Below are positions 26,638 through 42,222 of a stretch of 51,200 nucleotides of DNA, piece by piece. Made by a program: the position numbers and the translations under genes. Below the pieces are notes generated by a model. The model had not been told where the DNA came from. It worked only from the letters and a program-made list of their open reading frames with translations, and made no database searches. The number at the start of each line of letters is the position of its first letter. Positions within the stretch are counted from its first letter, which is position 1. Source of the stretch: Verrucomicrobiota bacterium (GTDB taxonomy: Bacteria > Verrucomicrobiota > Verrucomicrobiia > Opitutales > Opitutaceae); assembly GCA_018239675.1 (NCBI GenBank), contig JAFEGX010000033.1, positions 1 through 51,200 of the forward strand. The letters are read 5' to 3'.

Positions 26638-29163
26638 TCAGGTTTCCTGACGCAGCACCTCGAGGGGCGGGTGGTCCACGATGCCGCGGTTGGCGACAAG
26701 GCCGGTGACCAGGGTCACGACCACGGAGGCGGTCACCGCAACCAGCAATACGACCGGTGATAGCACGAATGCCGTCTTGAACACGAACCGCGACAGCAGC
26801 GCGTTCGCGAGCACCGCCAGGCCGCCGCCGGTCACCGCCGCCAGCGCGCCCAGCACCGCGTACTCGACCAGCTGGATCTGCCGGAGCTGCCGGCGCGTGG
26901 CGCCCAGGGTGCGCAGCAGCACGGTCTCGCGCAGGCGCTGGAAACGGCCCGTCAACACCGCTCCCGCCAGCACGATCACGCCGGTCACGACCGTGAAGGC
27001 GGCCATGAAGGTGATGACGGCCGAGACCTTTTCCATGATGCCCATGAACGTCTGCAGGATGAGCGCGAGGTCGATGGCTGAGACGGTTGGAAATTCCTTC
27101 GCGACCGCCCGCTGGACCTTGGCGGACTCCTCGGGACCGGCCGCGCGCACCGCCGCGATGAAGGTCTTGGGCGCGGGCTCGAGCACGCCTTCGGGAAAGA
27201 CGATGAAGAAGTTCGGCTGCATGCGCTGCCACTCGACCTCGCGCAGGCTCGAGACGTAGGCGTTGACCGGCACACCCTGGACATCGAACACCAGCGCGTC
27301 GCCCAGCTTCAGCTGGAGCTCCTTGGCGAGTCCGGCCTCGACCGAGACGGGAATTCGGGCGGTGCCGGGCTCGACCCGGCCGACGAACCTGCCCTCGGTC
27401 ACCTTCTCGGTGTTGGCGAGTTCGCCGCGGTAGGTCGAACGGTACTCGCGCCGGAGCGTCCACGCCGGGATGCCGGACTTGTCGTCCTTGAGGATCTCGT
27501 CGGCCGTCCGCCCGCGGAGGTTCGCGAGCCTCATCGTCACGACCGGCGCCTGGGCCACCAGCTGCGCCCCCTGCTCCTTCACGATCGCACCGAGCCGCGC
27601 GATCTGGTCGTCCTGGATGTCGAAGAACATCAGGTTGGGCCGCGCGCCCTCGCCGACCCCGAGGATCTTGTTCACCAGCGTCTGACGGGTGAGCACGAGC
27701 GTGAGCATGAGAAAGGTGCCCAGGCCGAGCGACAGGAGCAGCAGGACGGTACGGTTGTTTGGACGGTGGAGGTTTGCCAGGCCCTGTCGCGCCACATAGG
27801 GCAGTTTCCGGCGCGGGACGAACCGCCGGGCCAGCCACGAGACCAGCTGCGCCATCCCGGCAAGGGTGCCAAAGCCTACCGCCATCATCAGCGCAAAGCC
27901 CAGGCCGGTGAGCCAGCGCCCGGTCTGCCACACGGCGAAGCCGAGGATTGCCACCGCGATGGCCGCGATCAGGGCCGCCTGCAGGGAATCGCGCCCCGCC
28001 GTCTCACCCTGCGCCGAGCGAATCGCGAGCAGCGGCGACACCCGCCGGACCGTCAGCAGCGGAAGCAGCGTGAACAGCACGCAGATCACCAGCCCGGCGA
28101 GGGCGCCCTTCCCCACCGCCGGCCACGACACGGAGAAATCCACGCTGAACGGAAGGAAGTCCTTCACCACGATCGGCAGGACCAGCTGGACCACCACGCC
28201 CAGGGCCGCCCCGAGCAGCGCGCCCAGCACGCCGACTCCGGCGCCCTGGACCACGTACACCGCGAAGCTGGTCCGCGTGCTCGCGCCCAGGCAGCGCAGG
28301 ACGGCCACGGTGTTGAGCTTCTGCCGGACGTAGACGTGCATCGCGCTGGCCACGCCCACGGCGCCGAGAAACAGCGCGACGAAACCGACCAGGCTGATGA
28401 ACGAATACGTGTCCTTGAGCGCCTGGCCGAGATCGCGCTTCCGCTCCTCCACCGTCGCATACTGCCACCGCTGCTTGCCGAATTTGGCCTTCAGGTCCTT
28501 CACCACCTGCTCCGGATCGCGGTCCGGCGGGAACCGGAAGTGCTCGCGGTGGGTGATGAAGGTCTTGCTCGCCAGCAGTCCCGTGGACTCCAGCGCTTCC
28601 CTCGACACATAGACTCGCGGCGAGAACATGGCGACCGCCGCCGATTCGCCCGGGATCTTGCGGAGGGCGCCGACGACCTTGAACGTGGAGCGGCCGATGC
28701 GCACCTCGTCGCCCGCCTGCACGCCGAACTGCACGAGCAGCGTCTCCTCGAGCAGCGCCCCCTGGCCCGCCTGCACGAGCGCCATCGCGCCCGGCGGCGT
28801 GGTCACGATCTCGCCGTAGAACGGGAAACGTCCCTCGAGCGCCCGCACCTGCACCAGGCGCCGCTGGTCCCCGCGGGTGGGAAACGACACCATCGAGCCC
28901 AGCGAAATCTCCGCGGCCCGCTCCGCCCCGAGCGCCCGGAACGCCGCCTCCGCCTCGGGCGGAAATTTCTGCCGCGACACAATGGTCAGGTCGGAGCCCA
29001 GCAGCGCCTTCGTCTGCAGCTCAACCGTGCGCTTCAGGTTGTCCGCAAACGACCCGATGCCCACCAGCGCCGCGATGCCCAGCACGACCGACAACGAAAC
29101 CAGCGCCAGCCGCCGCCGCGACGCCCGCGAGTCCCGCCACGCCATCTTGAGGAGGAAGTTCAT
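26638..29163 (-). CDS. ABC permease, YbbP/FtsX family
   Basis: 841 residues from the ATG at 29163 (MNFLLKMAWRDSRASRRRL). Two FtsX-type blocks: the first after a large extracytoplasmic domain (FISLVGFVALFLGAVGVASAMHVYVRQKLNTVAVLRCLGAS), the second near the C-terminus (ITFMAAFTVVTGVIVLAGAVLTGRFQRLRETVLLRTLGATRRQ); about ten TM helices in all. This is the YbbP layout. With the ATPase at 29624-30310 and the divergent tesA-like gene it reproduces the E. coli tesA / ybbA-ybbP arrangement. Here an inverted-repeat cassette with its own gene lies between ATPase and permease, and its left arm ends four bases before this start codon, so no Shine-Dalgarno sequence remains. Confidence 0.9.
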   Translation of the reverse strand: MNFLLKMAWRDSRASRRRLALVSLSVVLGIAALVGIGSFADNLKRTVELQTKALLGSDLTIVSRQKFPPEAEAAFRALGAERAAEISLGSMVSFPTRGDQRRLVQVRALEGRFPFYGEIVTTPPGAMALVQAGQGALLEETLLVQFGVQAGDEVRIGRSTFKVVGALRKIPGESAAVAMFSPRVYVSREALESTGLLASKTFITHREHFRFPPDRDPEQVVKDLKAKFGKQRWQYATVEERKRDLGQALKDTYSFISLVGFVALFLGAVGVASAMHVYVRQKLNTVAVLRCLGASTRTSFAVYVVQGAGVGVLGALLGAALGVVVQLVLPIVVKDFLPFSVDFSVSWPAVGKGALAGLVICVLFTLLPLLTVRRVSPLLAIRSAQGETAGRDSLQAALIAAIAVAILGFAVWQTGRWLTGLGFALMMAVGFGTLAGMAQLVSWLARRFVPRRKLPYVARQGLANLHRPNNRTVLLLLSLGLGTFLMLTLVLTRQTLVNKILGVGEGARPNLMFFDIQDDQIARLGAIVKEQGAQLVAQAPVVTMRLANLRGRTADEILKDDKSGIPAWTLRREYRSTYRGELANTEKVTEGRFVGRVEPGTARIPVSVEAGLAKELQLKLGDALVFDVQGVPVNAYVSSLREVEWQRMQPNFFIVFPEGVLEPAPKTFIAAVRAAGPEESAKVQRAVAKEFPTVSAIDLALILQTFMGIMEKVSAVITFMAAFTVVTGVIVLAGAVLTGRFQRLRETVLLRTLGATRRQLRQIQLVEYAVLGALAAVTGGGLAVLANALLSRFVFKTAFVLSPVVLLVAVTASVVVTLVTGLVANRGIVDHPPLEVLRQET

Positions 29164-29167
29164 GGGC

Positions 29168-29622
29168 GGCCCACGGAATACACTGAACACGCGGAAGCAG
29201 TCATAACACGAACCGCTCGTGCTCGACCTTGGGGAAATGCCCGAAGTTCACGAGCAGCCCGAGTCGATACCCGGTGGCGTGGAGATAATTCTGGACCTGG
29301 GCTCGATGTTCGTCGGCTAAAACCGTAGTCGCCTTGATCTCGACCAGCACCGAGTCGAAGCAGACGAAATCTGCCTCGTAGCATTTTTTCAGCCGCCGCC
29401 CTTTGTATTCGAGTTCGATCGGCAACTGCGCCCGCGCCGGGACACCCCGTTCAGCGAACTCTATCTCCAGGCACTCTTGGTAAACCGCCTCGAGGAACCC
29501 GCAGCCCTTTCGACGATATACCTCAAAGCACGCTCCAAGGATCGCAAATGATTTACTCTCTTTGATCAGCATGAACATCTGTCCCGATTCTCCTTCCGCG
29601 TGTTCCGTGTATTCCGTGGGCC
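29168..29622. mobile_element. Inverted-repeat cassette carrying a GxxExxY gene
   Basis: A 30-bp arm at 29168-29197 and its reverse complement at 29593-29622 differ at a single base. Each arm contains 9-bp units of the TTCCGYGTR type (TTCCGCGTG, TTCCGTGTA, TTCCGTGGG on one strand). The 395 bases between them are filled by the GxxExxY gene, whose stop codon begins three bases from the left arm. The cassette occupies the ybbA-ybbP junction, one base after the ATPase stop and four bases before the permease start. Related arms form two 101-bp elements at 31093 and 32940. Confidence 0.7.
29201..29578 (-). CDS. GxxExxY-family protein (PD-(D/E)XK nuclease-like)
   Basis: 125 residues, the usual family length. 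The name-giving motif is GFLEAVY at 27-33 in YRRKGCGFLEAVYQECLEIEF. The core then shows the PD-(D/E)XK pattern D70 (YEADFVCF), E80-x-K82 (LVEIKATTVL), and a helix with QVQNYL as in the PDDEXK_3 group, followed by GYRLGLLVNFG. A nuclease fold is therefore likely, though activity is unproven for this family. Start could also be the ATG two codons in. The gene is enclosed by 30-bp inverted repeats and lies in sense with the flanking ABC genes. Confidence 0.85.
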   Translation of the reverse strand: MFMLIKESKSFAILGACFEVYRRKGCGFLEAVYQECLEIEFAERGVPARAQLPIELEYKGRRLKKCYEADFVCFDSVLVEIKATTVLADEHRAQVQNYLHATGYRLGLLVNFGHFPKVEHERFVL

Positions 29623-29623
29623 A

Positions 29624-30310
29624 TCAATTCACTTCGTCACTCGACACGGCCCCGCCCTTGAGGCGGATGATGCGCTGGCAGCGGCGGGCGAGATCGAGGT
29701 CGTGCGTCACCAGGATGAGCGTCGTGCCGCGCTCGCGGTTCAGGCCGAAGATCAGCTCGACCATCGCCTTTGCCGTCTCGCCGTCGAGGTTCCCGGTCGG
29801 CTCGTCGCAGAAGAGGATCTTCGGCCGGTTCATGAACGCCCGCGCCAGCGCCACGCGCTGCTGCTCGCCGCCGGAGAGCTGGACGGGATAGTGGTCACAC
29901 CGCTCGCCCAGGCCCACGCGCTCGAGCAGTGCCCGGGCCTCGGCTTCGCGCGTCGAGTCGCCCGCCAGTTCCACCGGCACCAGCACGTTCTCAAGCGCGG
30001 TCAGGGTCGGGATCAACTGGAAGTTCTGGAACACAAACCCGACATGCGCATTGCGGACCAGCGCTCGCTGGTCCTCGTCCAGGCCTCCGATCGCCTCGCC
30101 CGCCACCGCGACCGTGCCGCGGGTGGGCCGGTCGAGCCCGGCGCACAGGCCCAGCAGCGTGGTCTTGCCACTGCCGCTCGGGCCCACGACCGCGACCGTG
30201 GCGCCGGCGCTGATCTCGAAATTCACGTCGCGCAGCACCGTCAGCGCCCCGCCCGTCGAGGGATAGGTCTTGGTAAGCTGCTCCACCTTCAGCATCGGCG
30301 ATCCGCTCAT
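29624..30310 (-). CDS. ABC transporter ATP-binding protein, YbbA type
   Basis: 228 residues from the ATG at 30310 (MSGSPMLKVEQLTKTY); an ATG five codons further in is also possible. Walker A GPSGSGKTT (43-51), signature QLSGGEQQRVALARAF, Walker [16 protein letters not shown], and H-loop LVTHDLDLA. It belongs to the LolD/YbbA/MacB class. Partner of the YbbP-like permease, from which it is now separated by the GxxExxY cassette; diverges from the tesA-like gene. In E. coli this cluster is linked to lipid or esterase-related envelope functions, but no substrate is settled. Confidence 0.92.
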   Translation of the reverse strand: MSGSPMLKVEQLTKTYPSTGGALTVLRDVNFEISAGATVAVVGPSGSGKTTLLGLCAGLDRPTRGTVAVAGEAIGGLDEDQRALVRNAHVGFVFQNFQLIPTLTALENVLVPVELAGDSTREAEARALLERVGLGERCDHYPVQLSGGEQQRVALARAFMNRPKILFCDEPTGNLDGETAKAMVELIFGLNRERGTTLILVTHDLDLARRCQRIIRLKGGAVSSDEVN

Positions 30311-30376
30311 AAGAAGATTCTGGCCAGACAACACGCGAATCGGCACGAAAGCTAGTTCAAGCGGTCATTTTCCTGC

Positions 30377-31000
30377 ATGAAGCTGCGGTTTTACGTTTTG
30401 GTGCTCGGCCTCCTCGCGGCCGCCACGGTGCGCGGCGCCGAGACCGCGCGGGTTTTGGTGTTTTTCGGCGACAGCCTGACGGCCGGCTACGGGCTCGACG
30501 ATCCCGACACCGAATCCTATCCCGCGCTGATCCAGCAGCGGATCGAACAAACCGGCCGGCCGTGGCGCGTGGTCAACGCCGGGCTCAGCGGCGAAACGTC
30601 CTCGGGCGGCCTCCGTCGCGTCGATTGGGTGCTGCGCCAGCCGGTCGATCTCTTCGTCCTCGCCCTCGGCGCCAATGACGGCCTGCGCGGCATCGAGCCC
30701 GCCGTCACCGCCGCCAACCTCCAGGCGATCATCGACCGCGTCCGCGCCAAGTTCCCGGCGGCCCGCATCGTCGTCGCCGGGATGCAGATGCCCCCGACCA
30801 TGGGCGACGCCTACGCGCGGGAGTACGCCGCGATCTTCCCGGCGCTGGCGGAGAAGAACCACTTGACCCTGATCCCGTTCCTGCTGGCCGGCGTCGCCAC
30901 CAAGCCCGACCTCAACCAGCCCGACGGCCTGCACCCCAATGCCGCCGGCGCCGCCAAGGTCGCGGAAACCGTCTGGCAGGCGTTGCTTCCCCTGCTGTGA
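30377..31000 (+). CDS. tesA: SGNH-hydrolase, TesA-like thioesterase/arylesterase
   Basis: 207 residues with a signal peptide (MKLRFYVLVLGLLAAATVRG). All SGNH blocks are present: GDSLTAGYGL with Ser33, SGETSSGG with Gly72, GANDGLRG with Asn100, and DGLHPNAAG with Asp183 and His186. Length and spacing match E. coli TesA, a periplasmic acyl-CoA thioesterase/lysophospholipase/arylesterase. The divergent ybbA-like gene is the same neighbour as in E. coli and many Proteobacteria, supporting orthology. Confidence 0.9.
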   Translation: MKLRFYVLVLGLLAAATVRGAETARVLVFFGDSLTAGYGLDDPDTESYPALIQQRIEQTGRPWRVVNAGLSGETSSGGLRRVDWVLRQPVDLFVLALGANDGLRGIEPAVTAANLQAIIDRVRAKFPAARIVVAGMQMPPTMGDAYAREYAAIFPALAEKNHLTLIPFLLAGVATKPDLNQPDGLHPNAAGAAKVAETVWQALLPLL

Positions 31001-31092
31001 ACCCCGCCCGCTGAGCCCCGCCATCTTGAAGGGCCGTGCCGGCGCCGTGGAGACTTTCGCAAGCTCCGCACCAGCCTAGAAAGCGCCATACC

Positions 31093-31193
31093 AATCCGGT
31101 GGCCCACGGAACACGCGGAAAATAGCCCGGGCCGTCTGATTGCTCCGGCACTCAGCTTCCGTGTCTTCCGTGTGTTCCGTGGGCCGCCGGATT
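31093..31193. repeat. 101-bp palindromic element, copy A
   Basis: Outer arms are imperfect reverse complements (AATCCGGTGGCCCACGGAA on the left, mirrored on the right) built from 9-bp units TTCCGTGTC, TTCCGTGTG, TTCCGTGGG. A 36-base core (31114-31149) is identical, in reverse orientation, to the core of copy B at 32940-33040. It sits between the tesA-like gene and the coiled-coil gene, beyond both stop codons. Its arms resemble those framing the GxxExxY gene. Confidence 0.85.
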
Positions 31194-31222
31194 GAAAGCT
31201 AAAACAAAGGCTGCTATTGAAG

Positions 31223-31519
31223 CTAGCGACCTTCGTCGCGTTCGATTTCACGCACTTTTTGACTGAGGCGGTCGATTTCCGCGTGCAGCCGTTCCGTCGC
31301 AGCGTGATCGGACCGAATCGCGGCGAGGCGTTCGGGCGAGACCCGCGCGGCGGCGAGGCGAGCGTGCTCGTTCCGCAGCCGCAGCAATTCCTGGTGCTGC
31401 GTCTGCAACAGGGCGACTTCACCCCGGAGGGTATCATTGTACTGCCGCTGCAGCCAGAGCACGACCCCGGAGCAGAGGGTCAGCAGGAACACCAGCAGGA
31501 ATGGCCAACGGATGCGCAT
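31223..31519 (-). CDS. Small membrane-anchored coiled-coil protein
   Basis: 98 residues: one N-terminal TM helix (WPFLLVFLLTLCSGVVLWLQ) followed by a long coiled coil (TLRGEVALLQTQHQELLRLRNEHARLA, then ERLHAEIDRLSQKVREIERDEGR). No known family. It starts three bases after the sigma-TonB fusion gene ends, so it is surely in the same transcript. The fusion also has a TM helix and coiled coil, so the two may pair through them. Confidence 0.75.
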   Translation of the reverse strand: MRIRWPFLLVFLLTLCSGVVLWLQRQYNDTLRGEVALLQTQHQELLRLRNEHARLAAARVSPERLAAIRSDHAATERLHAEIDRLSQKVREIERDEGR

Positions 31520-31522
31520 CGT

Positions 31523-32857
31523 CTACTTGGGAAACACGGTCGCGCCCTTCACCTCGACCGTCGCCGGCGTCTTCGATGAAACGGCGAACCGGATCGGAAC
31601 CGTGATCCGGGTGTTCACCGCCCGCCCGCCTTTCTTGCCCGGATTGAAGGTCCATTGACGGACCGCCTCGACCGCCGGCGCCTCAAATTCGGGTCGTGAG
31701 GACTTTTCAACCGCAACATCGCGGGCGACGCCATCCTTGTCCACCACCAGACTAACCGTCACTTCGCCTTCGATTCCGAAGTTTCTCAGGGAAGTTGGAT
31801 ACTCGGGCCTGGCTTGGGTCTTTGGACTCGGGGCCTGGTCGAGACTGTCCGACAACCTCGGCCGGGCCGCGCGCGCGTTTTCAGCCCGGATCACCGCCCG
31901 ATTCAATCGCCCACCTAGCAACGCCGCCTGGGCGTCAAGGTCGGCCAAGACCCCGTCGTCATTTTTCATGGCCGCGACTTCCGCCGCTTCGCGCGACAAC
32001 TGGGCCACATCGCTGCGCAGCCGGGCGAGGTCCGCACTCTCTCCCTCAAGCTGCGCGACTCTCGCCTGCAACTCGACTCGCTCCTGCTGCTGGATCGCAA
32101 AACCCGAGGCTCCGAGCGCGGCGATCATCACGCCCGTGCCGATGGCAAGTTTGTTGGTGCTCATAAGTGTGAGGATCAGGCTTGCGACGCCACCCGTGCC
32201 TGCGACGGCGAGCGCCGTTCCGGTCACGGTCGTGGCGAGCCCCGCCGGCGCGGCGACCGCGGCGTGCTCGGCCAGCGCAGCGGCCAGGGCGACAACGCTC
32301 GAGCCCAGTCCCCGTCGCGCGAGCTGGACCTGGAGCTTATCGAGGGCGCGGTCGACCCGCATGCGCGCGCCGCTGTCGGTGAGCGCCAGCCGGGACGCAA
32401 CTTCGCCGTAGCTACGCCCTTCATAGAATCGCAATAGAATCGCCGCCCGATCCTGCGCGCCCAACTGTTCCAGCGCCTCGTCCATGATGGGCCGAAGGAT
32501 CTCCCAGTTGACCGGGGCTGGTTCCGGTGAGTCCTGCAATGCAGTCATGCGTGAAGCCTCCTGCTCGCGTTCCCTCCGGCGTTGCTCGGTTCGCACGAAC
32601 TTGGCCGCCGCGTAACGGGAACTGGTGAAGAGCCAACCGGCGAGTTCGGATTCGGCCGCGACGATCCGGGCCTTGCGGGCGAGGTCCGAAAAAACCTGCT
32701 GGGTGATGTCCTCGGCAGAGTGGGTGTCGCCGTTCAACCGCCGCAACGCCACGCCGTAAACAAGCCCGATGTGACGCCGGACAATCTCGGCAAAGGCCTC
32801 CGGCGCACGGTTGGCCGCGAAGCGATGGAGCAGGTGTGTATCAGTCTCCTCGTGCAT
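31523..32857 (-). CDS. ECF sigma factor fused to a TonB C-terminal domain
   Basis: 444 residues. Region 2 (about 8-95: FAEIVRRHIGLVYGVALRRLNGDTHSAEDITQQVFSDLARKA, then LAGWLFTSSRYAAAKFVRTEQRR) and region 4 (LEQLGAQDRAAILLRFYEGRSYGEVASRLALTDSGARMRVDRALDKL) are those of an ECF sigma factor. From about 185 an Ala-rich hydrophobic stretch and a TM segment (LAIGTGVMIAALGASGFAI) lead to a coiled coil (QQERVELQARVAQLEGESADLARLRSDVAQL). The C-terminus (about 345-430) is a TonB/TonB-like domain (ARPEYPTSLRNFGIEGEVTVSLVVDKDGVARDVAVEKSS..AVEAVRQWTF). This puts RNA-polymerase targeting and a periplasmic TonB domain in one membrane protein. Enclosed by palindromic elements A and B. Confidence 0.88.
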   Translation of the reverse strand: MHEETDTHLLHRFAANRAPEAFAEIVRRHIGLVYGVALRRLNGDTHSAEDITQQVFSDLARKARIVAAESELAGWLFTSSRYAAAKFVRTEQRRREREQEASRMTALQDSPEPAPVNWEILRPIMDEALEQLGAQDRAAILLRFYEGRSYGEVASRLALTDSGARMRVDRALDKLQVQLARRGLGSSVVALAAALAEHAAVAAPAGLATTVTGTALAVAGTGGVASLILTLMSTNKLAIGTGVMIAALGASGFAIQQQERVELQARVAQLEGESADLARLRSDVAQLSREAAEVAAMKNDDGVLADLDAQAALLGGRLNRAVIRAENARAARPRLSDSLDQAPSPKTQARPEYPTSLRNFGIEGEVTVSLVVDKDGVARDVAVEKSSRPEFEAPAVEAVRQWTFNPGKKGGRAVNTRITVPIRFAVSSKTPATVEVKGATVFPK

Positions 32858-32939
32858 CGGCTGGTTCTACCCTTAGCACCCGGATCAGCGAAATTAGCAC
32901 AAAAAAGACCGACGTGAGCACCATCCGAAACGCCCACCC

Positions 32940-33040
32940 AAACCGGTGCCCCACGGAATACACGGAAGCGGAGCGCCGGAGCAATCAGACGGCCCGGGCT
33001 ATTTTCCGCGCGTTCCGTGTATTCCGTGGACCACCGGTTT
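32940..33040. repeat. 101-bp palindromic element, copy B (inverted relative to A)
   Basis: Same element as at 31093-31193 in opposite orientation. The 36-base core (32975-33010) is identical; the outer arms AAACCGGTGCCCCACGGAAT and mirrored sequence pair with about three mismatches in 28. Relative to A, one 9-bp unit is missing from one arm and an extra unit is present in the other, so total length stays 101. It lies between the sigma-TonB start and the small Cys-rich gene. Confidence 0.85.
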
Positions 33041-33129
33041 GGCCGACTTGGCCGGGAACAAACTTGCCTCGGGGCGTTCTAGACATACTCGTTTGTCTCC
33101 ACTCGAATCCTGAAACCCTAAAAAATCCC

Positions 33130-33339
33130 ATGAAGAAAATCCTCATCACCCTGATCTCCCTCTGCGCCGTTTCCTTTGCTTTCGCCGGCGGCGAAGCCTG
33201 CAAAAACAAGGACGCCAAGTGCGATGCCAACTGCACGAAGGAGTGCTGCAAGAAGGACGCGAAGAAGGAAGACGCGACCAAGACTGCCAGCACCGACGCC
33301 AAGAAGGACGAGAAGGCGCAGTCCGCCGACAAGAAATAA
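33130..33339 (+). CDS. Small secreted Cys- and Lys-rich protein
   Basis: 69 residues from the ATG at 33130: signal peptide MKKILITLISLCAVSFAFAG, then a cysteine cluster GEACKNKDAKCDANCTKECCKKD (C-x6-C-x3-C-x3-C-C), then a Lys/Asp/Ala-rich tail without structure. The frame is open further upstream, but only through the repeat element, and the signal peptide fixes this start. The cysteine spacing suggests metal binding or disulfide cross-linking; no family is recognised. It has its own strong terminator. Confidence 0.8.
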   Translation: MKKILITLISLCAVSFAFAGGEACKNKDAKCDANCTKECCKKDAKKEDATKTASTDAKKDEKAQSADKK

Positions 33340-33455: not shown

Positions 33456-36400
33456 GTGAACGCGCGAGTTCTGGTCTCGCTCGCTGCTTTCTTTGCAGCG
33501 GGCGCGTCGGAATTGCAGGCCCAGTTCATCTGGACCGGCGCTGGAGCGGATGGTGACGTCCGAAATCCGGCCAACTGGCAGGGAGGCGCGGCCCCGACCG
33601 GCGGAGGGTCCGAGTACATCGTCTTCAGCGCGGAAGGGACCAACACGCCCGTGGTGCCCGTCCCGTTCAGCGTGGGCTTTGTGATGCTCACCGCATTTTC
33701 CAGCAACTACATCGTGACCGGAACCGGCGCGCTGACTCTGAACACCGACGTCACCACGGAGCCAGGCACGTACGGCCTGTTGACCATCACCGCGCCAGTC
33801 ACCCTGGCGACTGGCGTCCACAACATCTCGCTCGGCGGCCAGCAGGGCACGGGCGCCGACGTCACCCTCCTCGGCGCCATCGACGGCCCTGGCAGCTTCA
33901 TCAAGTGGGGCGTGAGCACACTCACCATCGATCACGCCGGCAACTCCTTCAGCGGCTACGTCGAGCTCGAGCAGGGCCAGGTCAGGGTGCACGGCGACGG
34001 CGCGCTGGGCACCGGTCCGGTCTATTTCAATGGCGGTTCGCTCGTCGCACTGGACACCCACCCCGGCAGCCTGACGACGGTCCTGACGAACGAATTCAAT
34101 ATCGGCCCGGTCTCGGACTTCGGCGAATACGGCGGGAAAGGCTCGCTGACGATCACCGGCACAACGTACCTCCAGGTGGAGGCGGGCTACGCGCAGGTGA
34201 ACAGCCTGGGCGACGGCGTGCTCACCTTTGGCAGCATCATCGAGGCCGTGCCCGGCACGAGTCTGGTCGTCGCCGGCAGCGGGGTCGTGCGGGTGGCCGG
34301 CGAGACCGGCTACACGGGCGGCACCCACGCGCAGAACAACGCGACGGTGATCTTCGCGAGCGCGCTGCCCTCAACCGGCCTGCTGGTCGCGCACGACGAT
34401 TCCTACATCGGCACGGAGCGGACCACCAACATCCAAGCCTCCTTCCTCTCGCGCTTCGACCCGGTCAACACGATCGGCATCGTGGGCTTCGACACGCCGA
34501 ACCTGGCCCAGCCGGCCGTCGTGAGCGAACTGATCGACCTCTCCTATTTCGATCCCTCCGTCCGCGTCGGCACCGCAACGGCCGCGTTCTTCACCGGGAC
34601 GATCACCCCCGGGGCCTTCGGTTATCGCTTCGGCGGGCGCGGCACGCTGACGATCCTGTCGGCCCTCACCGGCGAGACCAGCGTCGAGGCGACCTCCGGT
34701 CTGCTGCTGTTCCTGAAGGGCGCGAACCAGTACTACGGTCCCACGCGCGCAGGCGCCGGGGCGGCGATCGTGTTCGCGGGGAGTTCCTTCCTGTCCGGCA
34801 CGACCTTCAACGTCGACGCCGGCAGCTACCTCGGATCCACCGAGACGACCGGGCTCACTGTCGCGAGCTTCCTGAACCACTTCAACCAGTCGGCCACCTT
34901 CGGGGTGATCGGCTTCGACACCGAGAATATCGGCGGCCGGATCGTCGGCGATCCCATCATCCTGACCGGCTTCCAGAGCGACGTTTACCTCGGCACCGCC
35001 ACCCAGGCGACCCTCGCCGGCCCGATCACCCCGGCCGCGGGCAATTACCAGTTCACCGGCTTCCGCGACGGCCAGCTCACCGTCAGTTCGGCGCTCTCGG
35101 GCAGCGCTGCGGTCTACGTCGGCCAGCCGCAGGAGGTGCTGTACTCCTCTGCACCCGGCGGTGTCACTTATTCACCCAGCGTCACCCTCATCGGCGACAA
35201 CAGCTACACGGGCGGCACCTACCTTCAGTCGGGTCGCCTCCGGGTGGGCAACACGGCCGCCCTCGGGACTGGAATGCTGCACCTCACGAACTATCAGGGC
35301 TCCGTCGGACTGGAGAGCACCGTGGCAGATCTCGGGATTCCCAACCCCATCGTCTTCGAGAACTACTCCAGCCTCACGCTCGGGGGCGCCAATGACTTCA
35401 CGCTATTCGGCAACGTGAACAACTCGGTCAATGGACTGCTGGACAAGATCGATACCAACACCGTCACGTTGACCGGCGACAACAGCGCCATGCTGGGCAA
35501 GGTTCAGGTGCACAGCGGCGTCCTGCGTCTCGACGCCCAGTACGCCGCGGGCATGGGCCCCGTGAGTCTGCTTAATTTCGACGGCGTTTACGACGGCCAG
35601 TTGGTGGTCTTGTCGCCATCGGCTTACGTGCACGACCTGACCGGCGAGAATCAGACCAAGATCACGCTCGAGTCGGGCAATCTCGTGGTCGACCAAACCT
35701 CGAACACCCAATTCAGCGGTCAGATCACCGGCACCGGCGCCCTGGTGAAGATCGGCAGCGGCAGCCTCACCCTGACAGGGAGCAGCGTCTTTTCCGGCGG
35801 CACCGAGGTCAACGGCGGCACCGTGACGCTCGATGGCGCCACGGTCACCCACTCAAGCGGCGACGTCACGGTTGGATTTGCCGATGGCGACAACGGCAGC
35901 CTCCAGCTGATCCGGGGCGCGATGTTGGCGAACCAGAACGCCAATATCGGCCACGACAGCGGCAGCATCGGCCAGGTGCTCGTCAGCCGGGACTCCGCCT
36001 GGCACGTCGTAAACAATCTCAGTGTCGGCCTCAACGGCGACGGCTCGCTCGCGGTCGAGACCGGCGGCGCCGTCACGAGCCTGTCGGGCTACGTGGGAGT
36101 GTCGGGCATCGGCTGGGCCGCGGTCCGCGACCCGGGCAGCTCGTGGAACCTGACCAATGAACTGGTGATCGGCGGGTTTGGCGTCTCCGGCCAGGGGAAC
36201 CTGAGCATCAGCAATGGCGGCGCGGTCAGCAGCGGCGTGGTCACGATCGGCCAGCTGGGCGTGGGCCAGGCCTCGGTCGACGGTTTCGGCAGCACCCTGC
36301 ACAGCGACGGCGGGATCAACGTCGGCACCAGCAGCGGCAGCGGATCGCTCATCGTGCAGAACGGCGGCATCATTTCCAGCGCCTACAGCGAGATCGGGAA

Positions 36401-37502
36401 CGATTTCGCCGGCGGCTATGTGGTGATCACGGGGCTCGACAGTGCCTGGAATGTCGTCACGAGCATCGACGTCGGCCTCAATTCCGGCTCCGGCAACCTG
36501 ATGGTCATGGACGGGGCCCAGGTGAACGTCGGCAACGGCACCGGCACGATTTCGATCGGCGTCAACGGCGGCGTCGGCGCCTTGGTCGTCGGCCAGAGCC
36601 CCTTCGCCGCGCAGGCCGGGATCATCAATGTCGGCACCCTGCTGGGCAACTCGCAGGTGCAGTTCGCCACCGCCGCGACGTCGGCGATTCCCTACTACCT
36701 GACCCGGGACGGCACCGCGTTGGGCACCCCGGTGGTGATCAGCGGCGGCCTGACCGTGCTCAACTTCGAGGGCTACAATGTCCTGAACGGAGCCAACACC
36801 TACACCGGCGGAACCTATCTGAACGGCGGCACCCTGGTGGTCGCGGTCAACAACGCGCTTGGCACCGGTGGCATCGTCTTCAACGGCGGTCGGCTGAGCA
36901 TCGCGTCCGGCGTCACGCTCAACAATCCCATCGCGTACACCGGCGGGGGCGTCCTCGGCGGCAACGGGACCTTCGGCAATCCGGTCACCGTCGGCGCCGG
37001 CGTCGATCTCGCCCCGGGCAACTCCGTCGGCCTGCTCACGTTCGCCAACGGCACCACCTGGGGTCCGGGCGGCACGTATGACATCGAGGTCCAGAGTGCC
37101 ACCGGCACGCGGGGCGTCGGCTACGATAGCATCAACGTCACCGGCGGGCTCACCTTCACCGCCACGCTCGGCGCGCCCTTCACGCTCAACCTCATCTCGC
37201 TCGACGCGGGAGGAAATCCCGGCGCGGTGTCCGACTTCTCGTCCGCCGGCAATTATTCGTGGCTGATCGCGCAGACCGACGGCCTGTCGGGCTTCGATCC
37301 CGCCAACATCTCGGTCGCAACCACGAGCTTCACCAACAACCTCGGTACGGGACTGTTCACCGTCAGCGCCGCTGGAAACAACGTCTATGTGAACTTCTCG
37401 CCCGTGCCCGAGCCGGCCACTTGGATGCTGTTCGGCCTCGGGCTCGCGGCCTTCGTCGTGGCGGCGGCAAGACGTTTCAGGGGGCTTCCGCGTCGGAGGT
37501 GA
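33456..37502 (+). CDS. Giant PEP-CTERM autotransporter-repeat protein 1
   Basis: 1348 residues from a GTG; signal peptide (NARVLVSLAAFFAAGASELQAQ) and the FIWTG..NPANWQGG opening shared with its neighbours. Autotransporter-associated beta-strand repeats occur throughout (GTLVVAVNNALGTGGIVFNGGRLSIASG). Two copies of a GFDT module lie near residues 315-410 and 460-555. Residues about 800-1040 hold T5SS/PEP-CTERM-associated repeats (GSLAVETGGAVTSLSGYVG, GNLSISNGGAVSSGVVTIG). The end is PVPEPATWMLFGLGLAAFVVAA with a basic tail, the sorting signal cut by an exosortase. Predicted to be exported and surface- or matrix-associated; no outer-membrane beta-barrel transporter domain is present. Confidence 0.93.
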   Translation: MNARVLVSLAAFFAAGASELQAQFIWTGAGADGDVRNPANWQGGAAPTGGGSEYIVFSAEGTNTPVVPVPFSVGFVMLTAFSSNYIVTGTGALTLNTDVTTEPGTYGLLTITAPVTLATGVHNISLGGQQGTGADVTLLGAIDGPGSFIKWGVSTLTIDHAGNSFSGYVELEQGQVRVHGDGALGTGPVYFNGGSLVALDTHPGSLTTVLTNEFNIGPVSDFGEYGGKGSLTITGTTYLQVEAGYAQVNSLGDGVLTFGSIIEAVPGTSLVVAGSGVVRVAGETGYTGGTHAQNNATVIFASALPSTGLLVAHDDSYIGTERTTNIQASFLSRFDPVNTIGIVGFDTPNLAQPAVVSELIDLSYFDPSVRVGTATAAFFTGTITPGAFGYRFGGRGTLTILSALTGETSVEATSGLLLFLKGANQYYGPTRAGAGAAIVFAGSSFLSGTTFNVDAGSYLGSTETTGLTVASFLNHFNQSATFGVIGFDTENIGGRIVGDPIILTGFQSDVYLGTATQATLAGPITPAAGNYQFTGFRDGQLTVSSALSGSAAVYVGQPQEVLYSSAPGGVTYSPSVTLIGDNSYTGGTYLQSGRLRVGNTAALGTGMLHLTNYQGSVGLESTVADLGIPNPIVFENYSSLTLGGANDFTLFGNVNNSVNGLLDKIDTNTVTLTGDNSAMLGKVQVHSGVLRLDAQYAAGMGPVSLLNFDGVYDGQLVVLSPSAYVHDLTGENQTKITLESGNLVVDQTSNTQFSGQITGTGALVKIGSGSLTLTGSSVFSGGTEVNGGTVTLDGATVTHSSGDVTVGFADGDNGSLQLIRGAMLANQNANIGHDSGSIGQVLVSRDSAWHVVNNLSVGLNGDGSLAVETGGAVTSLSGYVGVSGIGWAAVRDPGSSWNLTNELVIGGFGVSGQGNLSISNGGAVSSGVVTIGQLGVGQASVDGFGSTLHSDGGINVGTSSGSGSLIVQNGGIISSAYSEIGNDFAGGYVVITGLDSAWNVVTSIDVGLNSGSGNLMVMDGAQVNVGNGTGTISIGVNGGVGALVVGQSPFAAQAGIINVGTLLGNSQVQFATAATSAIPYYLTRDGTALGTPVVISGGLTVLNFEGYNVLNGANTYTGGTYLNGGTLVVAVNNALGTGGIVFNGGRLSIASGVTLNNPIAYTGGGVLGGNGTFGNPVTVGAGVDLAPGNSVGLLTFANGTTWGPGGTYDIEVQSATGTRGVGYDSINVTGGLTFTATLGAPFTLNLISLDAGGNPGAVSDFSSAGNYSWLIAQTDGLSGFDPANISVATTSFTNNLGTGLFTVSAAGNNVYVNFSPVPEPATWMLFGLGLAAFVVAAARRFRGLPRRR

Positions 37503-41993: not shown

Positions 41994-42064
41994 TTCTGGG
42001 GCAGGCGTTCTGGTTGAAAGCCGCGGTTAGAACACGGGCTTGTTGCACAGGAGCAAACGGCGGG

Positions 42065-42184
42065 GAGAACCGCTAATTTTCGCTAATCTGCACTAATCCG
42101 ATCTGAAGCCCGAGCCCTTTCCCGAGTTTGGGGCAACTTTAACCGGATCGGACTAGTTCCGATTAGCGAGAATTAGTGGTTCCC
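42065..42184. repeat. 120-bp palindromic element with 10-bp-period arms
   Basis: Left arm 42065-42102 and right arm 42147-42184 are reverse complements at 31 of 38 positions. Arms consist of 10-bp units GCTAATTTTC, GCTAATCTGC, ACTAATCCGA. The 44-base core is GC-rich. It lies between PEP-CTERM genes 2 and 3, upstream of the promoter of the latter, and overlaps no coding sequence. Confidence 0.8.
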
Positions 42185-42222
42185 TTCGCTCCCTCCTGTG
42201 GAGATCTTCTGGTCGATTATCG

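Follow-up and report, generated by a model that had tools for sequence, protein, structure and literature searches.

Periodic inverted arms around GxxExxY nuclease-like genes: a probable two-part element at an ABC operon junction

The window analysed here, a stretch of 51,200 nucleotides from a 3.85 Mb genome assembled in 148 contigs, holds a small gene between two inverted arms at an ABC operon junction. The site is bounded by a ybbA/LolD-like ABC ATPase (29624..30346, minus strand) and a ybbP-like FtsX/MacB permease (26638..29163, minus strand). The gene encodes 125 amino acids (29201..29578, minus strand) and matches GxxExxY (PD-(D/E)XK-like) profiles; the left arm (29168..29197, plus strand) carries three CACGGAA-type units spaced 9 bp apart and pairs with the right arm (29593..29622, minus strand). 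The arms are 30 bp long and differ by one mismatch (96.7% identity, blastn E 4e-11), and a longer pairing extends over 49 nt with 84% complementarity. Only 3 nt and 14 nt lie between arms and gene, 1 nt separates the cassette from the stop codon of the ATPase (29624) and 4 nt separate it from the permease start (ATG at 29163). A first-pass annotation of the same DNA had described two 30-bp arms with one differing base and gaps of 3 and 14 nt, which holds to the base, as well as a cassette fitted between the ybbA-like stop and the ybbP-like start, which leaves just the 1 nt and 4 nt given above. What kind of element is this? Terminal inverted repeats around a small open reading frame are present, and the site is a protein-coding operon junction rather than a 23S rRNA gene. 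The sole gene of the cassette matches PF13366 only, a DDE or HUH/Y1 (IS200/IS605-like) transposase being absent from it, and a scan of 12 window proteins around it turned up no transposase. Rfam gave no match in window positions 28900-33300, and no target-site duplication is evident by eye at the junctions read in relatives or at two gene-less copies in the window (see below).

The window protein is a member of the GxxExxY / PDDEXK_3 family, scoring above the curated cut-offs of PF13366 (133.4 bits, cut-off 22, E 6.5e-39) and TIGR04256 (131.8 bits, cut-off 35, E 1.4e-38) and carrying the catalytic D and ExK. The PD-(D/E)XK-like core proposed from the sequence (D70, E80, K82) is conserved over 95 loci, among the matches listed: D70 in 94, E80 (or D) in 95 and K82 in 94. 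The dN/dS ratio is 0.03-0.13 in 11 of 13 GxxExxY pairs, those where it was computable, which corresponds to strong purifying selection; taken together with the conserved residues, this indicates that the gene is maintained as a protein with catalytic residues. What could such a protein act on? T7 endonuclease I is a Holliday-junction-resolving PD-(D/E)XK enzyme. The two best PDB profile matches of the GxxExxY protein, with no others below E 1, are T7 endonuclease I-type entries, with the D and the E.K inside the aligned segment, at a non-significant E of 0.83-0.84 that makes them a lead only; an enzyme that resolves junctions would be a natural match for folded-out arms. PADLOC and PHROGs returned no match for the window protein, no GxxExxY protein was found in phage records, and the search returned eight plasmid records. 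The source genome has six GxxExxY genes, and the named records nearest to the one in the window are from Opitutaceae. Tandem double GxxExxY domains within one open frame of about 280 residues were seen at G016:C1:5003436-5004194, G060:C14:39384-40145 and G062:C17:13393-14139.

Are the arms a peculiarity of this locus? Arms were sought by aligning locally the 200 bp before a gene to the reverse-complemented 200 bp that follow it (180 bp on each side for 80 named loci), and were called at an alignment score of at least 26, with mismatched partners as the null. Among the matches listed, 80 of 95 loci in the source genome and its relatives have them (null 5.6), as do 33 of 40 second-batch loci of relatives (null 3.4); these 135 loci leave out some matches, mostly partial, and L056 was dropped as a duplicate of L034. 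The named set gave 74 armed loci out of 80, against a null of 37.8 that is inflated because many of these loci share one arm class. By phylum, the armed named loci are 56/59 in Verrucomicrobiota, 9/12 in Planctomycetota, 2/2 in Lentisphaerota and 3/3 with no phylum, and single loci from Kiritimatiellota, Myxococcota, Calditrichota and Thermodesulfobacteriota are all armed. Twelve genomes outside Verrucomicrobiota or unassigned, chosen by the author from the named set, have arms at 27 of 30 loci (null 3.7); ten of these loci were already among the 80 named, and the new ones are armed in 17 of 20 cases. As controls, PIN-domain genes in the same relatives gave 0/30 at a score of at least 24, and random 345-bp stretches of GxxExxY loci (those of at least 2500 bp) gave 4/173 at 26 or more and none at 30. 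The mismatched-partner nulls, random offsets and PIN controls rule out a chance inverted repeat. The first-pass annotation had treated gene and repeats as one unit, and had held that GxxExxY genes standing without repeats elsewhere would speak against it: other GxxExxY genes are armed, far more often than control genes, and the recurrent association supports the single unit.

An arm is about 30 bp long and consists of about three tandem units of 8-10 bp with a 7-nt core (CACGGAA, CACGAAT, CGCAGAG, CGCTAAT and CCAGGAA, among others); of 80 first-batch loci, 73 had their strongest periodicity at a lag of 8, 9 or 10. Both unit sequence and period follow the GxxExxY protein phylogeny. On the protein tree, the period (8, 9 or 10) requires 20 changes over 106 labelled loci, compared with a mean of 49.6 and a minimum of 41 in 300 shuffles, and a first protein tree gave 15 changes against 35.9 when shuffled. 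Protein identity also correlates with arm similarity over 80 loci (Mantel rho 0.25, 0/1000 permutations), a correlation partly expected whenever arms and gene travel together, since co-travel alone would yield it. At the ybbA/ybbP-like junction, the two arms of one cassette score a mean of 44 against each other and 23.3 across species (0/20000 permutations), with the own-arm score as the row maximum in only 6 of 11 cases. Concerted arm change within one lineage was considered and set aside, as replacement of cassettes can explain the signal instead. A minority of loci have arms of reversed polarity, with the units inside-out (among them L037, L048, L055, L238, L248, L328 and L334).

Arms that flank a GxxExxY gene also occur in the genome as gene-less inverted doublets. 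The window contains two of the cassette's own arm class, at 31091..31194 (arms 31092-31120 and 31166-31194, ssDNA fold z -8.8) and at 32938..33042 (arms 32938-32967 and 33013-33042, z -7.7), which are inverted copies of each other; the first-pass annotation had pointed out two gene-less members of the cassette's arm family, and they are real. A further element at 42067..42182 (z -5.7), absent from that annotation, has 10-bp units of the CGCTAAT class, as do the arms of a different GxxExxY gene on contig 98 of the same genome. The strong ssDNA folding is what any inverted repeat would show. The CGCTAAT-class element is flanked (window 42046-42200) by half-sites similar to arms of the ACAGGAGG class, the class of the GxxExxY gene of contig 92, so that it looks like an element within an element. 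The DNA between the two cassette-class elements (31523-32857) encodes an unusual fusion of an ECF-type sigma-70 factor with a TonB C-terminal domain in one open frame, and just beyond the second one (33456-37502) is a long repetitive open frame with passenger-associated-transport repeats (PF12951) and a PEP-CTERM tail (PF07589).

Do the gene-less copies go with their gene? Gene-less elements of the cassette class lie mostly on other contigs than the gene. Two arm patterns were counted in 57 genomes, with clades A and B delimited by the author on the tree and gene-cassette arms included in the counts: pattern A, TTCCGTGTNTTCCGTG, totals 191 matches in 13 genomes that carry a clade-A gene and 57 in the remaining 44, and pattern B, CGCTAATNNNCGCTAAT, totals 97 in 7 genomes that carry a clade-B gene and 21 in the remaining 50. 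Within 37 same-family genomes, pattern A is associated with the clade-A gene (MWU p 1e-5) and not with the clade-B gene (p 0.33), and pattern B with the clade-B gene (p 1.5e-6) and not with the clade-A gene (p 0.14), p values that are rough and not independent tests because the genomes are related. The correspondence has exceptions: G006, G031, G035 and G036 have at least three pattern-A matches with no clade-A gene among the tree loci, the same is true of G015, G033, G038 and G056 for pattern B, and four clade-A genomes and one clade-B genome have fewer than three matches despite their cognate gene. The earlier proposal that the gene-less elements are tied to the gene is thus upheld for the two classes tested, in which outside arm matches follow the cognate gene. 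Among the 40 matches of G004 are eight arm pairs that lie close together and face opposite ways; they include the gene cassette, and by the author's count all eight have the same polarity. At least 12 of 15 CACGGAA sites in G004 have an element-bearing orthologue in the close relative G006, so vertical inheritance accounts for many gene-less elements, a complication for the mobile reading; 11 of the 12 matched sites score at least 26 in both genomes and one scores 34 against 23, and the remaining 3/15 have no match among 16 G006 stretches. No base-exact empty site of the CACGGAA class was found; all stretches were chosen for holding elements, so such sites could not appear in this comparison.

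How stable is the cassette at its operon junction? The permease is present in 36 of the 57 genomes, and 30 junction loci were read. Ten have an intact GxxExxY cassette and one (G026) has arms with an interrupted gene. Four carry gene-less inverted elements: G008, G005 and G027 with 7-bp units (scores 34, 30 and 22, the last weak) and G016 with 9-bp units (score 38). Two longer spacers, in G003 and G007, are without clear arms (score 18). The rest are eight gaps of at most 29 nt, extrapolated from protein alignments, and five more, 39-205 nt long, that lack arms (scores up to 16). These counts reject the idea that the arms are an ancestral, fixed part of the operon; the first-pass annotation had regarded a cassette fixed in all relatives as evidence against a mobile unit, and with 10 of 30 loci intact and one interrupted this is not the case. 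On the operon tree, cassette presence takes 8 changes against 9.2 when shuffled (G026 scored as present), and the proteins found at the junction group closely in the GxxExxY tree (2 changes). The comparison of orthologous ybbA-ybbP loci that the annotation had proposed reveals exchange of whole cassettes, most clearly in the sister species G002 and G004. Most 100-bp bins of their ATPase and permease genes are 92-99% identical (exceptions 0.77, 0.84, 0.90 and 0.90) and their cassette bins only 53-71%, with CGCGAA-type arms in one and CACGGAA arms in the other and proteins from two different GxxExxY subclades. Near-identical flanks around different cassettes indicate that whole cassettes were replaced or acquired separately at the junction. 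Three intergenic spots were compared between the close relatives G006 and G004 (L365/L388, L360/L394, L358/L395): at one, the arm pairs of the two species differ (scores 51 and 35), and the other two have an arm pair in G006 (32, 30) and an unrelated short spacer in G004 (12, 20). Among 161 protein pairs with at least 78% identity, most share flanks, i.e. they were inherited in place, and eight have no flank match on either side, some of them between phyla: L239 (Myxococcota) is 87.6% identical to L270 (Planctomycetota) and 81% to L279. The locus with retained arms and interrupted gene at the G026 junction (L193) may be a step from a gene-bearing to a gene-less element. Two GxxExxY cassettes on contig 92 of G043 (L064, L074), 96% identical and separated by about 2 kb, have similar arms and unmatched outer flanks, with a four-helix-bundle gene a few kb away.

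Four-helix-bundle proteins have cassettes of their own. TIGR02436 is the protein family of 23S rRNA intervening sequences (IVSs), and its genes occur in 39 of the 57 genomes searched, with 11 in the source genome. The PF05635 family is also described as resembling the Avd protein of diversity-generating retroelements (PMC10053308). Inverted arms surround 34 of 50 TIGR02436 loci (2.6 expected), a sample of a longer match list, and 20 of 27 in the 12 chosen genomes (0.7 expected), where the partial matches L417, L418 and L429 were left out (loci L127-L176 and L407-L436). The arm period is 7 in 30 of 34 and 19 of 20 armed loci. These cassettes form a system parallel to that of GxxExxY, with the same architecture around an unrelated protein that is not a known nuclease.

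The feature in the window is probably one copy of a widespread two-part element, a pair of the REPIN/RAYT type built on a PD-(D/E)XK nuclease. The recurrence of the layout across phyla, and the presence of gene-free arms, for the two arm types examined, mainly in genomes with the matching gene, suggest a DNA cassette, selfish or domesticated, of a kind not recognised before. In its autonomous form, two inverted arms, each with about three tandem units of 8-10 bp, would enclose a GxxExxY nuclease gene; in its dependent form, the same arms would enclose roughly 10-200 bp and no gene. A dimer or oligomer of the PD-(D/E)XK protein may recognise the repeated units once the arms are folded out as a hairpin or cruciform, and may cut there; host repair would then copy or excise the hairpin, and the arms could be spread or kept in the manner of REPINs and RAYTs. 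Arm recognition, cutting and movement by the GxxExxY protein, with spread through host repair, are what we infer from these patterns.

But is the protein between the arms the one that moves them? The same layout around the unrelated four-helix-bundle protein makes a third-party mobiliser possible: an unlinked host or phage enzyme could move the arms, with GxxExxY and four-helix-bundle genes as cargo that settled in one kind of hairpin element and protects, silences or packages it. Two unrelated proteins in one architecture, the lack of a transposase among the 12 scanned proteins around the cassette and the location of most cassette-class gene-less elements away from the gene's contig all fit such an enzyme. 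We nevertheless judge it rather unlikely, as arm class and period track the GxxExxY clade, arm copies track the cognate clade in the two classes tested, and a shared mobiliser would need to read very different arms, of period 7 for four-helix-bundle genes and 8-10 for GxxExxY.

Could the arms instead work in RNA? The IVS of Coxiella 23S rRNA is described as bounded by terminal inverted repeats that form a 28-bp stem and has been called selfish; RNase III cleaves IVSs, which code for the four-helix-bundle S23 protein (PMC4990558). Arms that pair in the transcript, with the hairpin processed and the insertion in an operon tolerated, would agree with these IVSs, with the shared architecture of four-helix-bundle genes and with the position of the window cassette inside an operon. 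Selection on a sense-RNA hairpin should, however, produce an excess of G.U-compatible mismatches, and the 185 loci of all sets have 134 of them on the gene strand against 178 of the A.C type (p 0.015), the opposite of the expectation; this large wobble count, like the tree, was made without L337, whose reading frame is unsure and which is kept in the flank count, and it also leaves out L217 and L226 (the same loci as L063 and L109). By set, the numbers are 55/90 in the first batch (p 0.005), 25/39, and 54/49 in the 80 named loci, with no bias; four-helix-bundle arms have 28 against 33 (p 0.61). Sense-RNA hairpin selection is not supported on this ground, and with no Rfam match across 28900-33300 either, an RNA-level element seems improbable. 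A regulatory or defence module, in which the protein binds its arms and thereby controls its own gene and a set of distant operators, or serves as a nuclease toxin or defence factor with a terminator-like hairpin, would be in keeping with the strong purifying selection and with gene-less elements that persist at orthologous sites. We regard it as very improbable: the window protein is without a PADLOC or PHROGs match, the distant copies are inverted doublets, which operators do not need, and between close species the elements at a given junction differ or are missing.

GxxExxY and four-helix-bundle proteins are widely annotated with no clear function, and matched periodic arms give both families a concrete substrate to test. 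The cassettes also suggest where short inverted repeats in the intergenic DNA of bacteria may come from, and they add a second system, based on an unrelated enzyme, for studying how hairpin repeats persist in genomes. More tentatively, and with somewhat less confidence than we have in the two-part element itself, GxxExxY and S23/IVS proteins might each drive a separate class of self-spreading hairpin elements with protein-specific units (8-10 bp and 7 bp). Such mobile DNA would be distinct from insertion sequences, REPINs and MITEs, and many unexplained heptamer and nonamer inverted repeats might be its non-autonomous offspring. Searches of an open-access library without subscription papers or preprints found nothing that links GxxExxY or four-helix-bundle proteins with such arms.

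How does the element compare with known systems? MITEs and their parent insertion sequences are non-autonomous and autonomous forms that share terminal inverted repeats. Gene-bearing and gene-less GxxExxY forms are alike in this; unlike them, the GxxExxY cassette has no DDE or HUH domain and no target-site duplication was seen, and its arms are internally periodic and diverse. Cyanobacterial STRR repeats are tandems of heptamers. The GGGAATC heptamers of Xanthomonas often form inverted pairs that converge, with 70 cases in Xcc and 75 in Xac, and the passages on them name no associated protein (PMC4692102). Both heptamer families would correspond to the 7-bp arms of four-helix-bundle genes and not to GxxExxY. 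Like the cassette, the 23S rRNA IVSs contain a small open reading frame flanked by terminal inverted repeats that form a hairpin (PMC4990558), but the GxxExxY cassette lies outside rRNA genes, encodes a different protein and has no sense-RNA pairing signal; TIGR02436 cassettes are their nearer kin. The element resembles REPINs and RAYTs in having arms on both sides of a conserved gene, inverted doublets without a gene, and long persistence (PMC3116915, PMC8049555). RAYTs are reported as Y1/HUH transposases related to IS200/IS605, and REPs as palindromes of 20-40 bp (PMC3116915, PMC3733652), whereas the GxxExxY protein is of the PD-(D/E)XK-like kind and its arms are tandems of 8-10-bp units that pair with each other.
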